Source: a bacterium
GTDB lineage: Bacteria > Latescibacterota > UBA2968
Reading direction: 5' to 3'
NCBI GenBank assembly: GCA_027296045.1
Contig: JAPUJS010000354.1
Location: 1-36,716, forward strand
Length of the DNA stretch: 36,716 bases
Positions 159 to 15,250 of the stretch are shown here, piece by piece (the stretch's first letter is position 1; each line of letters begins with the position of its first letter). The position numbers and the translations under genes are program-made. Under the pieces are notes generated by a model. That model worked only from the letters and a program-made list of their open reading frames with translations, had not been told where the DNA came from and ran no database searches.

Positions 159-246
159 TGGTGCCGAAGAAGGGACTCGAACCCATACGGAGCAACGCTC
201 CACTACGCCCTCAACGTAGCGTGTCTACCAATTCCACCACTTCGGC
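159..246 (-). tRNA. tRNA-Leu (anticodon GAG)
   Basis: Reverse complement GCCGAAGTGGTGGAATTGGTAGACACGCTACGTTGAGGGCGTAGTGGAGCGTTGCTCCGTATGGGTTCGAGTCCCTTCTTCGGCACCA: acceptor stem, long variable arm, GGTTCGAGTCC T-arm, anticodon loop TTGAGGG and encoded CCA. Confidence 0.97.
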
Positions 247-6254: not shown

Positions 6255-6402
6255 ACTTTCCCTTCAAAATTGATTATCTTACATACCCGTCGGCAGCCGG
6301 CGACCGCCTCTCGATTCGCCCCTCCTGGATGGAGAGAGATCGCCGATTGCCGCACAGGTTTTCGATGTGTCCATTCACCCACGCACCCTGGAATCCGAAA
6401 CG

Positions 6403-8367
6403 ATGATGAACAATGTCCGTGCGATTATCTTCGACCTCGACGGCACCCTATTCGACCTCAACCCCCTGGTTCGCAACGCCCGGCAGAGAGTCGCCTACTT
6501 TCTCCACCAAAATGAGCTCTTCGCCTCCCGGGCCTATGCGTTGCGACGGCTCAACAGCCTGGAACGACGCCATGGCCCGTATTATTCCTCCTCCCCCTAT
6601 TATTTCGCCTTCTACGATATCGCCAAGGCCCTCTTTAAAGACAAACCCGAACGCATCCGTCAACTAACCCGAAAAACAGATCCCGATGCCGATCCAATCG
6701 AAGCCTTTGTCGGCGTGCTCGAACAGATCTACAATGCCGAAGATGTAGAAGACATCGCGCCCTACCCCGATGCCGTGCAGACCCTGGCCGAGCTTCGAGA
6801 AGCAGGCTACCTCCTCTTTCTGGTCACCCTGGGCAGGTCTTCTCGTCAGAAGAACAAAATCAACCGACTGGGCATTGGTCCCTATTTCCATCGCATCATC
6901 AACGAAGGCCCGCCTTCTCACGACTACTGGTTTGGAGAGATCTTACAGGACCAAAAATTAAGTCCGGATCAAGTCGTCGTCATCGGTGACCGCACCCAGG
7001 ACGAAATTCGGGCGGGCAACCGATTGGGCTTGCACACCGTGTGGATGCACCGGGGCCGATTTTCGGACACCGAACCCGGCGAAGGCGATCGACCAGACCA
7101 CCAGATCCAATTCCTTGCGCAGCTGCCCACCCTGCTTCACCTGGCCAAACGGGGCAAAAATACGGCCCAACTTAAAATAACCGTCATCGGTGGAGGCACC
7201 GGACTGCCCACCGTTTTGCGGGGTATGCGAACCTACACGGAAGCTCCCACAGCCATCGTCGCCGTTACCGACACCGGCGCATCCTCGGGGCGCATCCGCT
7301 GGAATCTGGGCGTTCCACCGCCCGGCGATATCCGCAATGTGCTCACTGCCCTGGCCGACCCCGACCGCATTTCTCCGGGCCTCTTCCGGGTCTTTCAGCA
7401 CCGGTTTCCCAACAGCGAAGCCGAATCGGGCATTTTCAAAAACGACCACATCGGCAATTTTCTTGTAGCCGCTCTCACCCAGCAATTGGGCGACTTTAAC
7501 AAAGCCATCCAAACCGCATGCAGCATGCTACATATCCGGGGCACCATCCTGCCAGCCAGCCAGGACAATGTGGACATTTGCGCCGAGTTGGAAAACGGGG
7601 AACACCGCTACACAGAATGGATGGTCCGCAAACCCGGCAAACCCCCGCTCAAACGCGCCTACTTGGTCCCCAACGAAGCCATCTTGAAAGAACTCGACCG
7701 AAAAGGCGGCGGACTGAAAAGGATTATTGATCCGGAAACCGGCCAGGTCGAAGTCCAGGCCCGCCGCAAAAAACCAGTGGATCTTCCCCAAAACCAGGCC
7801 AAGGCGCCTCCCGAAGCACTCCAGGCCATCGCCGAGGCCGACATCGTGGTCCTGGGTCCTGGCAGTCTGTTCACCAGTGTCATTACCGATCTCCTCGTGC
7901 CCGACATCCAGAAGGCCCTGCTGGACCGCACCCATGGCCTGACCCTTTATGTGTGCAACATTGTCACCCAGCCAGGCCAGGCCGACGGCTTTAAGGCCTC
8001 CGATCACCTCCGGGCAATCCGCCGCCACTTCCCGCAAAACAAACGGACCAGCGTGGTCGATCATATGCTGGTCCAGGATCCTCGAATCTTTCAAACCCCC
8101 AAAAGCCGTCCCTGGCACCCCCTTCTCAAACAGTATGAAAAAGACGGCAAAGAACTGGTCGAATGTGACAGCGATACCCTCGACGCCCTCGTGCCCTGGA
8201 CCCTGGCCGACCTGGTGGAAGAATTTCAACCCGATATCATGGACCGGGGCGTCGGCGATTTTATCAGCCACGACTCCCACAAAGTGGCCGACGCCATTTG
8301 CCGAATCTATTGCGGACTCAAAGTTCCCGACTACTGGGGCCTCCAGGAGGACACCGATGCCCGTTAA
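6403..8367 (+). CDS. Fusion protein: N-terminal HAD-superfamily hydrolase plus C-terminal YvcK/CofD-like gluconeogenesis factor
   Basis: HAD motifs IIFDLDGTLFD, LVTLGRS, VVIGDRTQDEIRAGNRLG. YvcK motifs KITVIGGGTGLPTVLRGMR, DTGASSGRIRWNLGVPPPGDIRNVLTALAD, NVDICAELENG, VLGPGSLFTSVITDLLVP. Confidence 0.93.
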   Translation: MMNNVRAIIFDLDGTLFDLNPLVRNARQRVAYFLHQNELFASRAYALRRLNSLERRHGPYYSSSPYYFAFYDIAKALFKDKPERIRQLTRKTDPDADPIEAFVGVLEQIYNAEDVEDIAPYPDAVQTLAELREAGYLLFLVTLGRSSRQKNKINRLGIGPYFHRIINEGPPSHDYWFGEILQDQKLSPDQVVVIGDRTQDEIRAGNRLGLHTVWMHRGRFSDTEPGEGDRPDHQIQFLAQLPTLLHLAKRGKNTAQLKITVIGGGTGLPTVLRGMRTYTEAPTAIVAVTDTGASSGRIRWNLGVPPPGDIRNVLTALADPDRISPGLFRVFQHRFPNSEAESGIFKNDHIGNFLVAALTQQLGDFNKAIQTACSMLHIRGTILPASQDNVDICAELENGEHRYTEWMVRKPGKPPLKRAYLVPNEAILKELDRKGGGLKRIIDPETGQVEVQARRKKPVDLPQNQAKAPPEALQAIAEADIVVLGPGSLFTSVITDLLVPDIQKALLDRTHGLTLYVCNIVTQPGQADGFKASDHLRAIRRHFPQNKRTSVVDHMLVQDPRIFQTPKSRPWHPLLKQYEKDGKELVECDSDTLDALVPWTLADLVEEFQPDIMDRGVGDFISHDSHKVADAICRIYCGLKVPDYWGLQEDTDAR

Positions 8368-9151: not shown

Positions 9152-9363
9152 CGCCTGAACCTCCTTTGGGAAGGATTCAACCTTCGCATTCTGAGACCGA
9201 CATAGATGCACAACATCCCATCGATCAATCCAATCATTGCAAGAACAGGATAGGGCACAGGGAGGCGGGTTTGGAGAAGCGGACCGAAATATCCCGTCAG
9301 AATCATACCTACTCCTAAATTAATAAATGCTTGTCCAAGATCATAAACCTGATTTTGATTCAT
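9142..9363 (-). CDS. 73-aa small membrane protein
   Basis: MNQNQVYDLGQAFINLGVGMILTGYFGPLLQTRLPVPYPVLAMIGLIDGMLCIYVGLRMRRLN, two hydrophobic segments; overlaps neighbours at both ends. Confidence 0.65.
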   Translation of the reverse strand: MNQNQVYDLGQAFINLGVGMILTGYFGPLLQTRLPVPYPVLAMIGLIDGMLCIYVGLRMRRLNPSQRRFRRWT

Positions 9364-10175
9364 CTGTCTTTTCCTATCAGTCGGACCTCGTCCCCCCGCT
9401 GAACTCCCATTTCCTCCGCCGCACTCCCTCCATTGACCGATATTTCCAACGTGCCCTGACTCCCATACAGCAACAACGGTTCCCCCTGTACCACATCCCC
9501 ATAGGTCCGGTGAATTCGATGAAATATCTGTCCGCCAATTTCAACCACCCGACCTTCCACAGCAGCCTCCACCTGTTCTTCAGACAAATTGCTGATCCCA
9601 TTTCCAAACCGGTCCACATGAACAATCCGGCCGGTCAGCCGGTCTGCTTCCTCTCGAACCGCCCATACATCGAGCATCACCGGATCGGTCACAAACGGAC
9701 CAAAAGCCTCTATTTCGACTCCCTGGCATAAATACCCAGCAGCCGGGGCAAACACATCCCGACCATGAAATGTGGCACTCACATCTTTTCGCATCCACTC
9801 CGGGTTTTCCAAACTGACCATCCGGCAATCGGCCTCGGCCTGAAAAACAGGTGTAAACACCCCGTTATCCGGCCCCACAAACCGATAGCGGGCCGTTTCC
9901 ACCACCAATCCCCGCCGTTTCCTGCCCACACCCGGATCCACCACAACAACATGAATCGTCCCGTCCGGAAAGTGCGGATAGGCAGTATGAAAAATATAGG
10001 CCCCGGCTTCCACGTCCTGTGGAGGAATCTCGTGCGTGATATCCACCACGGTAACCGACCCCGCAATCTCCAAAACCACCCCTTTCATCGCCCCCACATA
10101 ACCATCTTGAACGCCAAAATCGGTTGTCAAAGTCACAATACCGGGCCGATCGGCTGCTGTACTATTTTGTGACAA
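9360..10175 (-). CDS. SAM hydroxide adenosyltransferase (SAM-dependent halogenase/DUF62 family)
   Basis: IVTLTTDFGVQDGYVGAMKGV, DITHEIPPQDVEAGAYIF, VVVDPGVGRKRRGLVVET, GPDNGVF, DRFGNGISNL. TTG start with upstream GGGAGG. Confidence 0.93.
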   Translation of the reverse strand: MSQNSTAADRPGIVTLTTDFGVQDGYVGAMKGVVLEIAGSVTVVDITHEIPPQDVEAGAYIFHTAYPHFPDGTIHVVVVDPGVGRKRRGLVVETARYRFVGPDNGVFTPVFQAEADCRMVSLENPEWMRKDVSATFHGRDVFAPAAGYLCQGVEIEAFGPFVTDPVMLDVWAVREEADRLTGRIVHVDRFGNGISNLSEEQVEAAVEGRVVEIGGQIFHRIHRTYGDVVQGEPLLLYGSQGTLEISVNGGSAAEEMGVQRGDEVRLIGKDR

Positions 10176-10303: not shown

Positions 10304-10318
10304 TGGCACACCCTTTGC
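10304..10318 (+). promoter_or_regulatory. Sigma-54 (-24/-12) promoter
   Basis: TGGCAC-ACCCT-TTGC matches the TGGCAC-N5-TTGC RpoN core exactly, about 185 nt upstream of a response-regulator start. Confidence 0.75.
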
Positions 10319-10360
10319 GGTTAAGTAGATCAAATAGAACTGCCAAGCGTAGCTGACACT

Positions 10361-10495
10361 CCTGGAGATCGGAATCGGAGGGCACTGTCCGGCCAGATCC
10401 GGCAGTATCGGGGGAGAGCAATCACTGCTGGATCTGAATCGGCCTCCCTCCGATTCTCCTGGGAATCAGACGCTCCATAACTCCTTAGTCAGGAG
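10361..10495 (+). ncRNA. Candidate structured 5' leader (cis-regulatory RNA)
   Basis: Nested inverted repeats GAATCGGAGGG...CCCTCCGATTC and CAGATCCGGCAGT...ACTGCTGGATCTG, then CTCCT-TAGTC-AGGAG, which pairs the predicted SD of the downstream GTG start. Confidence 0.5.
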
Positions 10496-10504
10496 CAAGG
10501 AACT

Positions 10505-10879
10505 GTGGCAAATATACTGATTATCGACGACGAGCCAGACATCTGTGAAATCCTTCAAACCTTTTTGGAGGAGAACGGTTATACAGTCCAGATCGCCACC
10601 TCATCGGAAAGCGTTCTGGAAGACGTCAAACAAGCTCCCCCGGATCTGATTTTGCTCGACGTGGTCATGCCCGGCAAAAGCGGCTTTGACCTCCTCCCCC
10701 ACCTCAAAACCATCGCACCCAATACCTTCATCGTGGTCATCACCGGTGTAAACGACTACCGAATTGCCGACCTGTTCTACGAAAGCGGCATCAACGGCTT
10801 TCTCACCAAACCCATCCGATTGGACAACCTGCGGCTCACCATCAACCGATTGCTCGCCCCACCTGTTACACCCGCGTAA
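10505..10879 (+). CDS. Stand-alone response regulator (REC domain only, GTG start)
   Basis: ANILIIDDEPDICEILQTFLEENGY, LILLDVVMPGKSGFDLLP, FIVVITG, LTKPIRLDNLRLTI. Confidence 0.93.
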   Translation: MANILIIDDEPDICEILQTFLEENGYTVQIATSSESVLEDVKQAPPDLILLDVVMPGKSGFDLLPHLKTIAPNTFIVVITGVNDYRIADLFYESGINGFLTKPIRLDNLRLTINRLLAPPVTPA

Positions 10880-10892
10880 AAAAACCTGCCCA

Positions 10893-10919
10893 GCCGCAGC
10901 ACTCCCTGCGGCTTTTTTT
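10893..10919 (+). terminator. Rho-independent terminator after the response regulator
   Basis: GCCGCAG-CACTCC-CTGCGGC followed by TTTTTTT. Confidence 0.88.
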
Positions 10920-10924
10920 CGACT

Positions 10925-11614
10925 TCAAAAAACCCCCGCTTCCTTCATACTCAAAAATCGTTCCGATCCCACCACAATGTGATCCAACACCTCAATCCCC
11001 ATAATCTCGCCTGCCTGCACCATCCGCCTGGTCAGTTCAATATCCTCCTGGCTGGGCGTGACATCCCCCGAAGGGTGGTTGTGCGCCAAAATAACACTGG
11101 CCGCCGAAGAGCCAACAGCAGGGGCAAACACTTCCCGGGGATGGACTAAGCTAGCATTAAGAGATCCAACCGACACATCTTCCCTGCAAATGACCTGATT
11201 CCGTGCGTTCAAAAAGAACGCCACAAAATGTTCCTTGCGCCGGTCCTTAATGTCCGTCAACAGTCCCACCACATCCGAAGGCCGTGAAATCGAAGGGGCG
11301 ATTCCCATTCCCTGATTCAACCCTCTTTTGGCCAATTCAAATCCGGCAATCAGTCCTGCCGCCTTCGCCCGACCAATGCCCTTGATCTGGATCAACGCAG
11401 CAAGATCCATCTGCATCAAACCCTCCGGCGTGTGCTTCCGCAAAATCGCCTTGGTCACCTCCAACACGTTTCGCCCTTCGTAGCCTGTTCGCAACAAAAT
11501 AGCCAGCAACTCCTCATCCTTCAATGCTTCTGGTCCCAGCCGTTCTAATTTTTCCCGCGGCATATCCACATCTGCGACACCAGCAATACCTCTGCCTCGA
11601 ACCCCAACTTCCAT
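10925..11614 (-). CDS. radC: RadC family protein (JAB/MPN domain)
   Basis: MPREKLERLGPEALKDEELLAILLRTG, IKGIGRAKAAGL, HPREVFAPA, LAHNHPSGDVTPSQEDIELTRRM, VLDHIVVG. Confidence 0.95.
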   Translation of the reverse strand: MEVGVRGRGIAGVADVDMPREKLERLGPEALKDEELLAILLRTGYEGRNVLEVTKAILRKHTPEGLMQMDLAALIQIKGIGRAKAAGLIAGFELAKRGLNQGMGIAPSISRPSDVVGLLTDIKDRRKEHFVAFFLNARNQVICREDVSVGSLNASLVHPREVFAPAVGSSAASVILAHNHPSGDVTPSQEDIELTRRMVQAGEIMGIEVLDHIVVGSERFLSMKEAGVF

Positions 11615-13716: not shown

Positions 13717-13751
13717 TTGCGCCACAATGCGAACCATAAACGATGAAAAAG

Positions 13752-13782
13752 GCCGGTGCCTGAAGAAGACACTGGCTTTTTT
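13752..13782 (+). terminator. Rho-independent terminator after the cupin genes
   Basis: GCCGGTG-CCTGAAGAAGA-CACTGGC followed by TTTTTT. Confidence 0.75.
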
Positions 13783-13855
13783 CATCTTCAACACTTGCGC
13801 CGACCGAATTGGGTCGGTTCACATACCATTTGGAAAACAATCTATGGGATGGAAC

Positions 13856-13885: not shown

Positions 13886-14014
13886 GTGAGACTTCTGAAA
13901 ACTTGCTTTTACAGAAAACGTCCGAGAAAGTCCACGCATTCATGCGTGGGATGAATCGGATTTCGTAATCGGAACACGGCGTGTTTCCGACTCGAAACCA
14001 TTATGTTTTAGGGG

Positions 14015-14050: not shown

Positions 14051-15205
14051 ATGCCACGATTTGTCCGAAAACTCAAAGTTGCGAAGACCGACCCACTCGA
14101 CCAACTTGCTCTGGCCTCGGGAGATCTGTATTCCCGCGTCGTGGTCTATTTCTGGCGCACCGTCAGAAAGAAGGGGATCTGGTTGTCTCCGAATGCCCTG
14201 ATGAAAATCTTCAAGTCTGACGATTTGCATTCTCAATCTGCTCAGGCGACCATCCAGACCTTCTGTGCTTCTCTCAAGTCGTGGCGTGTTCGCAGGAAGG
14301 TTGATCCAGAGGCAAAGCCACCGAGACGGGGCAGACGCTTTTTTAAAGTCATCTGGAAAGGCCAGGCGATCCAGTTGCGTGATGGGCAACTCATCCTTCC
14401 CAACGGCAGGGGCAATGAGCCCTATACCCTCAAGTGGCGATTCGACAAACCCAAGCAGGTCGAGATGGGTTGGAATGGCCAAAGCTACGAGCTTCGTGCT
14501 ACATACGTCACCGATGAGAGTGCCACGCAGATCTCTGGCGATGGGATAGCAGCCGTAGACCTGGGCGAGATCCACCCTGCCACCACCTTTGACAGCACAG
14601 AATCGGTGATCTATAATGGTCGTTTGCTCAGATCCAAGAAACAGTATCAGAACAAGCTCAAGGCCAGACTTGCCAGCAGAATAGACACCAAGAAGAAAGG
14701 GTCGCGGCGTTGGCGAAGGCTTGTTAAGGCAAAGAAAAGGCATCTTGCCAGTATCCAGAACCAGATACGAGATATTGAGCACAAACAATCTCGGGCACTG
14801 GTCTCCACCCTGCTCAATGCACGGGTGCAGACGCTCGTGATCGGGGATGTGCGCGATATTCGTCAAGGGTTGGATTATGGCAAACGTGCCAATCAGAAGC
14901 TCCACCAGTGGTGTCATGGTAGATTCAGGCACCTGATCACCTACAAGTGGGAAATGCTTGGCGGTGAAGTTGCGCTTCAGGACGAAGCCTACACCTCCTC
15001 TACCTGTCCCAGGTGTGAGGATCGCCATAAACCCAAAGGCCGGACATTCAAATGTCGCTGTGGTTTCTCTGCTCATCGTGACTGTGTTGGTGCAATCAAC
15101 ATCCTGCAAAAGTATCAGGGCTGCGGCCCTGTAGTCGGGGATATGGCACCCCCCTCGCGAGGTGTGAGATATCACCCACACCTCGTGTGTCGCTCGGAGG
15201 CTTGA
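14051..15205 (+). CDS. tnpB: TnpB family RNA-guided nuclease / IS605 OrfB
   Basis: RuvC-like GIAAVDLGEIHPA, LVIGDVRDIRQG, zinc ribbon SSTCPRCEDRHKPKGRTFKCRCGFSAHRDCVGAINIL. Confidence 0.93.
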   Translation: MPRFVRKLKVAKTDPLDQLALASGDLYSRVVVYFWRTVRKKGIWLSPNALMKIFKSDDLHSQSAQATIQTFCASLKSWRVRRKVDPEAKPPRRGRRFFKVIWKGQAIQLRDGQLILPNGRGNEPYTLKWRFDKPKQVEMGWNGQSYELRATYVTDESATQISGDGIAAVDLGEIHPATTFDSTESVIYNGRLLRSKKQYQNKLKARLASRIDTKKKGSRRWRRLVKAKKRHLASIQNQIRDIEHKQSRALVSTLLNARVQTLVIGDVRDIRQGLDYGKRANQKLHQWCHGRFRHLITYKWEMLGGEVALQDEAYTSSTCPRCEDRHKPKGRTFKCRCGFSAHRDCVGAINILQKYQGCGPVVGDMAPPSRGVRYHPHLVCRSEA

Positions 15206-15248
15206 AACGCCTCCGAGAATCCCACGGATTTATCCGTGGGAGTGTCAA
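15199..15248 (+). ncRNA. Candidate omega-RNA 3' scaffold at the element right end
   Basis: Two consecutive hairpins GGAGGC-TTGAAAC-GCCTCC and CCCACGGAT-TT-ATCCGTGGG ending at the RE cleavage site; position matches the reRNA scaffold of known TnpB systems. Confidence 0.5.
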
Positions 15249-15250
15249 GT

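Follow-up and report, generated by a model that had tools for sequence, protein, structure and literature searches.

A putative sigma-54-controlled gene for a stand-alone receiver with a long, lineage-specific hairpin leader in a member of the Latescibacterota

In the stretch of DNA analyzed here (36,716 nucleotides, hereafter the window), a gene for a stand-alone response regulator receiver lies behind a long 5′ leader, and we lean towards reading it as a gene controlled by sigma-54 whose hairpin leader is fast-evolving, static and lineage-specific. The promoter and a short motif next to it are conserved, the locus is syntenic, and the leader hairpin is present in structure prediction and absent elsewhere. 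The features on which this reading is built are the following.

10304 to 10318, plus strand: sigma-54 -24/-12 promoter element TGGCAC-N5-TTGC (letters TGGCACACCCTTTGC), a perfect match
10339 to 10353, plus strand: conserved promoter-proximal element ACTGCCAAGCGTAGC, at about +10 to +24
10359 to 10371, plus strand: left imperfect direct repeat CTCCTGGAGATCG, immediately adjacent to the hairpin core
10372 to 10456, plus strand: nested hairpin core, with an outer stem (10372-10382/10446-10456) and an inner stem (10394-10406/10424-10436)
10452 to 10467, plus strand: alternative hairpin GATTCTCCTGGGAATC, proposed in a preliminary description of the locus, with a predicted occupancy of about zero
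10456 to 10468, plus strand: right imperfect direct repeat CTCCTGGGAATCA, 10/13 identical to the left repeat
10481 to 10495, plus strand: hairpin CTCCT-TAGTC-AGGAG of 5 bp (arms 10481-10485/10491-10495), holding the Shine-Dalgarno (SD) sequence
10505 to 10879, plus strand: stand-alone response regulator receiver of 124 aa with a GTG start (PF00072, 9e-28)
10892 to 10913, plus strand: intrinsic terminator-like site, an 8-bp stem followed by T6, closing the putative transcription unit

As far as the sequence can tell, positions 10304-10913 form one transcription unit. The -24 GG and -12 GC elements stand at the correct spacing, the genome encodes rpoN (PF04552, 2.8e-59), the pattern TGGCACN5TTGCW has 19 matches in this genome against 3 for the reversed control, and the promoter is retained at the orthologous loci of two relatives, G002 and G020, all of which support the sigma-54 promoter that the preliminary description had placed upstream of the leader. 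In its perfect match, its conservation and the presence of rpoN, it resembles other sigma-54-dependent (-24/-12) promoters, from which it differs in the conserved element that lies beyond its transcription start site (TSS). If the promoter is active, transcription would start near 10330, as predicted from the position of the sigma-54 element, leaving a leader of about 175 nt before the GTG start; at other sigma-54 promoters with a nearby downstream gene, leaders counted from near the TSS span roughly 48-114 nt. The PF00072 domain covers residues 4-113 of the 124 and is not followed by an output domain, so the protein has the stand-alone, CheY-like architecture; the nearest NCBIfam models, those of NtrX/NtrC receivers, score far under the cut-off. 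A gene for a SAM hydroxide adenosyltransferase (9360-10175, minus strand) is divergent from the receiver gene, and radC (10925-11614, minus strand) comes after it.

The window derives from a MAG-like assembly (89% complete, 653 contigs), the only genome of its genus among those compared. The receiver has its best orthologues in G002, of the same family, and G020, of the same order, and in both the gene occupies the syntenic position. The shared order is HAD hydrolase, SAM hydroxide adenosyltransferase and response regulator, followed by radC in the window and in G020. The receiver proteins of the window and G002 share only about 34% identity. The SAM hydroxide adenosyltransferase gene and radC are close neighbors in 15 other relatives, with no response regulator match between them, which indicates that the receiver gene has been lost or gained repeatedly. 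A protein scan of the species genomes returned general receivers only, with identities reaching about 41% across most of the length, and none of them has the promoter and motif upstream. In the receiver gene of G020 (L114:1490-1830), codon 3 is an in-frame TGA, a TAA and a probable frameshift are also present, and the contig has ambiguous bases; the gene may be a pseudogene or the product of poor MAG sequence.

Conservation extends from the promoter into the transcribed region. The motif CTGCCAAGCG, at about +11 to +20, is common to all three orthologous loci, and the ACTGCCAAGCGTAGC region is identical at 15 of 15 positions between the window and G002. The search pattern GGCACNNNNTTTGCN{15,35}GCCAAGCG, combining the sigma-54 element with CTGCCAAGCG, matched once in G000, the genome of the window, and once in both G002 and G020, each time at the orthologous locus, and in no other of the 46 relatives searched (reversed control, 0). 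A looser pattern, run over 64 phylum genomes, yielded two additional matches (G041 and G046), in which GCCAAGCG is the only shared part. An exact copy of the motif in G019 runs antisense within a predicted reading frame of 455 aa and adjoins no sigma-54 element, and other near matches are mostly at or under the level of the reversed-pattern control. Tentatively, ACTGCCAAGCGTAGC could be an undescribed control element of the stand-alone receiver, for which the variable leader would serve as expression platform; the element would then be either a downstream regulator-binding site of the sigma-54 promoter or a 5′-end RNA element able to form CUGC-CAAGC-GUAG. A leader peptide reading through the motif was also considered and rejected: by eye, its frame stays open in both the window and G002, yet in the window it lacks an ATG, GTG or TTG start, and in G020 a stop comes early.

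Besides the promoter, the preliminary description had reported a leader of about 175 nt with an outer, an inner and an SD stem, and each of these stems is indeed present. The outer arms pair at 11/11 positions, and the inner arms form 12 Watson-Crick pairs and one G-U pair (10401/10429) around a 17-nt loop. All folding reported here is prediction on MAG sequence: the full leader reaches -69.2 kcal/mol (z -2.98, matched by 1 of 300 shuffles), the 85-nt core alone -45.0 kcal/mol (z -4.47, 0 of 300 shuffles), and 10320-10540 has a z of -2.95 (0 of 200 shuffles). Pairs of 11-bp arms within 70 nt are in themselves not unusual over 36 kb (5 entries in the window, three of them overlapping, versus a shuffle mean of 0.8 and a maximum of 6); the non-random part of the leader is the 11-bp stem and the 13-bp stem nested together. 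That the predicted core fold goes far beyond its shuffles points to selection or to a structure of recent origin. When the window was scanned in fixed frames of 90 nt, the frame boundaries split the hairpin and the leader ranked unremarkably for that reason; stronger folds are present elsewhere in the window.

Several other features of the window were recorded along the way. A gene for a TnpB family RNA-guided endonuclease (14051-15205, NF040570) has strong hairpins on both sides, at 13931-13960 and 15151-15250. Between a small cupin-like gene and this TnpB element sits a strong inverted repeat of terminator-like appearance (13742-13786), the 20-nt arms of which are 85% complementary around a 5-nt loop. 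The 3′ flank of the TnpB gene, with a z of about -7.7, folds more strongly than any other part of the window, strong flanking folds being expected for IS605-type ends and guide RNA. At 6367-8367, a 666-aa frame appears by eye to join a HAD-type hydrolase to a YvcK/CofD-like protein and is followed by another HAD hydrolase, and a tRNA gene is located at the edge of the window (162-246, minus strand).

The hairpin occurs in one genome only among those searched. Comparison of the leader DNA with its own genome, 98 relatives, plasmids and phages revealed no second copy, and a covariance model (R1), made of one sequence given twice and testing for copies, not covariation, matched the window alone over 63 phylum genomes. 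The G020 locus (L114), absent from that 63-genome set, was searched separately and the hairpin was not found there. Rfam, at gathering and permissive thresholds, returned only a chance snoZ6 match (13.9 bits, gathering score 35), and literature searches turned up no description of such a leader. The leaders of the window, G002 and G020 measure 175, 155 and about 61 nt, with z of -2.98, -2.06 and +0.88, respectively; that of G020 is thus about 114 nt shorter than that of the window, and unstructured. No convincing alignment of the three exists 3′ of the motif. The G002 leader (L113:1350-1500) has a nested hairpin unlike that of the window, formed by GGCCTG...CAGGCC and an inner stem AAATC/GATTT; no strong second copy of it was found in the G002 genome. 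Since this leader, too, is long and shows moderate structure, a 'structured leader' as such may be loosely conserved.

The proposed sequestration of the SD holds in part. The SD does lie inside a predicted hairpin (-5.4 kcal/mol alone; paired at about 0.9 at 37 °C in the model), but opening it would cost 2.9 kcal/mol, which is mid-range among the starts of the window. The opening cost is 0.5-5.0 kcal/mol for 21 of 22 other window starts, and 4.4 and 4.0 kcal/mol in G002 and G020, as a rough yardstick with starts taken by hand from the table of open reading frames, several of them uncurated and one (entry 33024) assigned to the wrong strand. Masking of the SD is thus predicted, yet it is energetically ordinary. 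The modeled probability that the SD is unpaired is 0.23 at 20 °C, 0.09 at 37 °C, 0.08 at 42 °C and 0.16 at 60 °C, so that no release by heat is predicted between 20 and 60 °C, in disagreement with the suggested RNA thermosensor. The mutually exclusive folds fare no better, as the letters of GATTCTCCTGGGAATC are present but the predicted occupancy of the alternative hairpin is about zero from 10 to 70 °C. Both predictions count against a thermosensor and a two-state switch.

Since the promoter and motif are kept and the hairpin is not, and since the cost of opening the SD is ordinary and no switch is predicted, we take the conserved control to be transcriptional. The sigma-54 promoter, acting with an enhancer-binding protein, would drive a monocistronic stand-alone receiver gene, and the conserved 10-15 nt element just 3′ of the TSS would be a contact site for a protein or an RNA. 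The rest of the leader would be a real, lineage-specific long hairpin that is free to evolve. Any effect of this hairpin is one that we infer; its role, if it has one, would most likely be static and not that of a switch responding to ligand or temperature; it might shield the 5′ portion of the mRNA or, jointly with the weak SD hairpin, slightly dampen translation. On the other hand, as the comparison covers only two other orthologous leaders, a function restricted to the genus is possible. With the structured 5′ leaders of bacterial regulator genes that carry SD hairpins it shares its length, a small SD hairpin and a strong upstream hairpin, whereas it differs from them in not being conserved between genera and in the weak, energetically ordinary character of the SD hairpin.

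Alternatively, the leader could be a lineage-specific cis-regulatory RNA, the fold of which occludes the SD and the start codon and is relieved or strengthened by a trans factor such as CsrA, an sRNA or a protein. The predicted pairing of the SD is in line with this, as is that of TGCCA (10341-10345) with TGGCA over the start codon (about 0.74-0.92 in the window); CsrA is encoded in all three genomes, and AGGAG and AAGGAA at the ribosome site bear GGA. We nevertheless consider this explanation rather unlikely, as the pairing between the promoter-proximal motif and the start codon falls to 0.003 in the G002 model, and was therefore discarded as a shared feature, while the SD is ordinary in its opening cost and the hairpin lacks conservation. 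The GGA motifs near the start are not retained in the leaders of G002 and G020, and control by CsrA was rejected on the ground that their arrangement is not conserved, although the csrA gene is present.

The 85-nt palindrome might also be a decayed miniature inverted-repeat insertion in the leader, with no regulatory role; its arms would then be terminal inverted repeats, and the repeats around it an imperfect target duplication. Its 11-bp inverted arms are abutted by the two 13-nt imperfect direct repeats, an arrangement reminiscent of miniature inverted-repeat elements, and the orthologous leaders lack the palindrome, that of G020 being about 114 nt shorter. However, the palindrome has no second copy in the genome, relatives, plasmids and phages searched; the direct repeats are quasi-palindromic, extend the stem and may belong to the hairpin itself; and no empty site could be demonstrated, because the flanks do not align. 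An insertion of this type thus appears doubtful.

A riboswitch or RNA thermosensor with mutually exclusive folds, which the length, position, SD hairpin and alternative-hairpin letters of the leader call to mind, is highly improbable, given that the orthologous leaders share neither sequence nor structure, one of them being short and unstructured, and given the lack of a further copy or Rfam match and the modeled behavior of the alternative fold and the SD. The leader has in common with RNA thermometers (ROSE-like, fourU; PMC3669281, PMC10586365) an SD sequestered in a hairpin, but not the release of the SD upon heating, and its SD pairs with CTCCT and not with the four U of the fourU type. 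With riboswitches it shares the position in the 5′ leader, but neither a conserved aptamer nor an occupied alternative fold.

Overall, the locus indicates that a leader which looks convincingly like a switch can be confined to a single lineage, with the selected part lying elsewhere. Under the sigma-54 reading that we favor, the part under selection would be the promoter together with the conserved element inside the transcribed region, which is more interesting than the hairpin. Should this element be the site of a regulator or a point of RNA contact, it would extend the picture of sigma-54 promoter control in a small, testable way.
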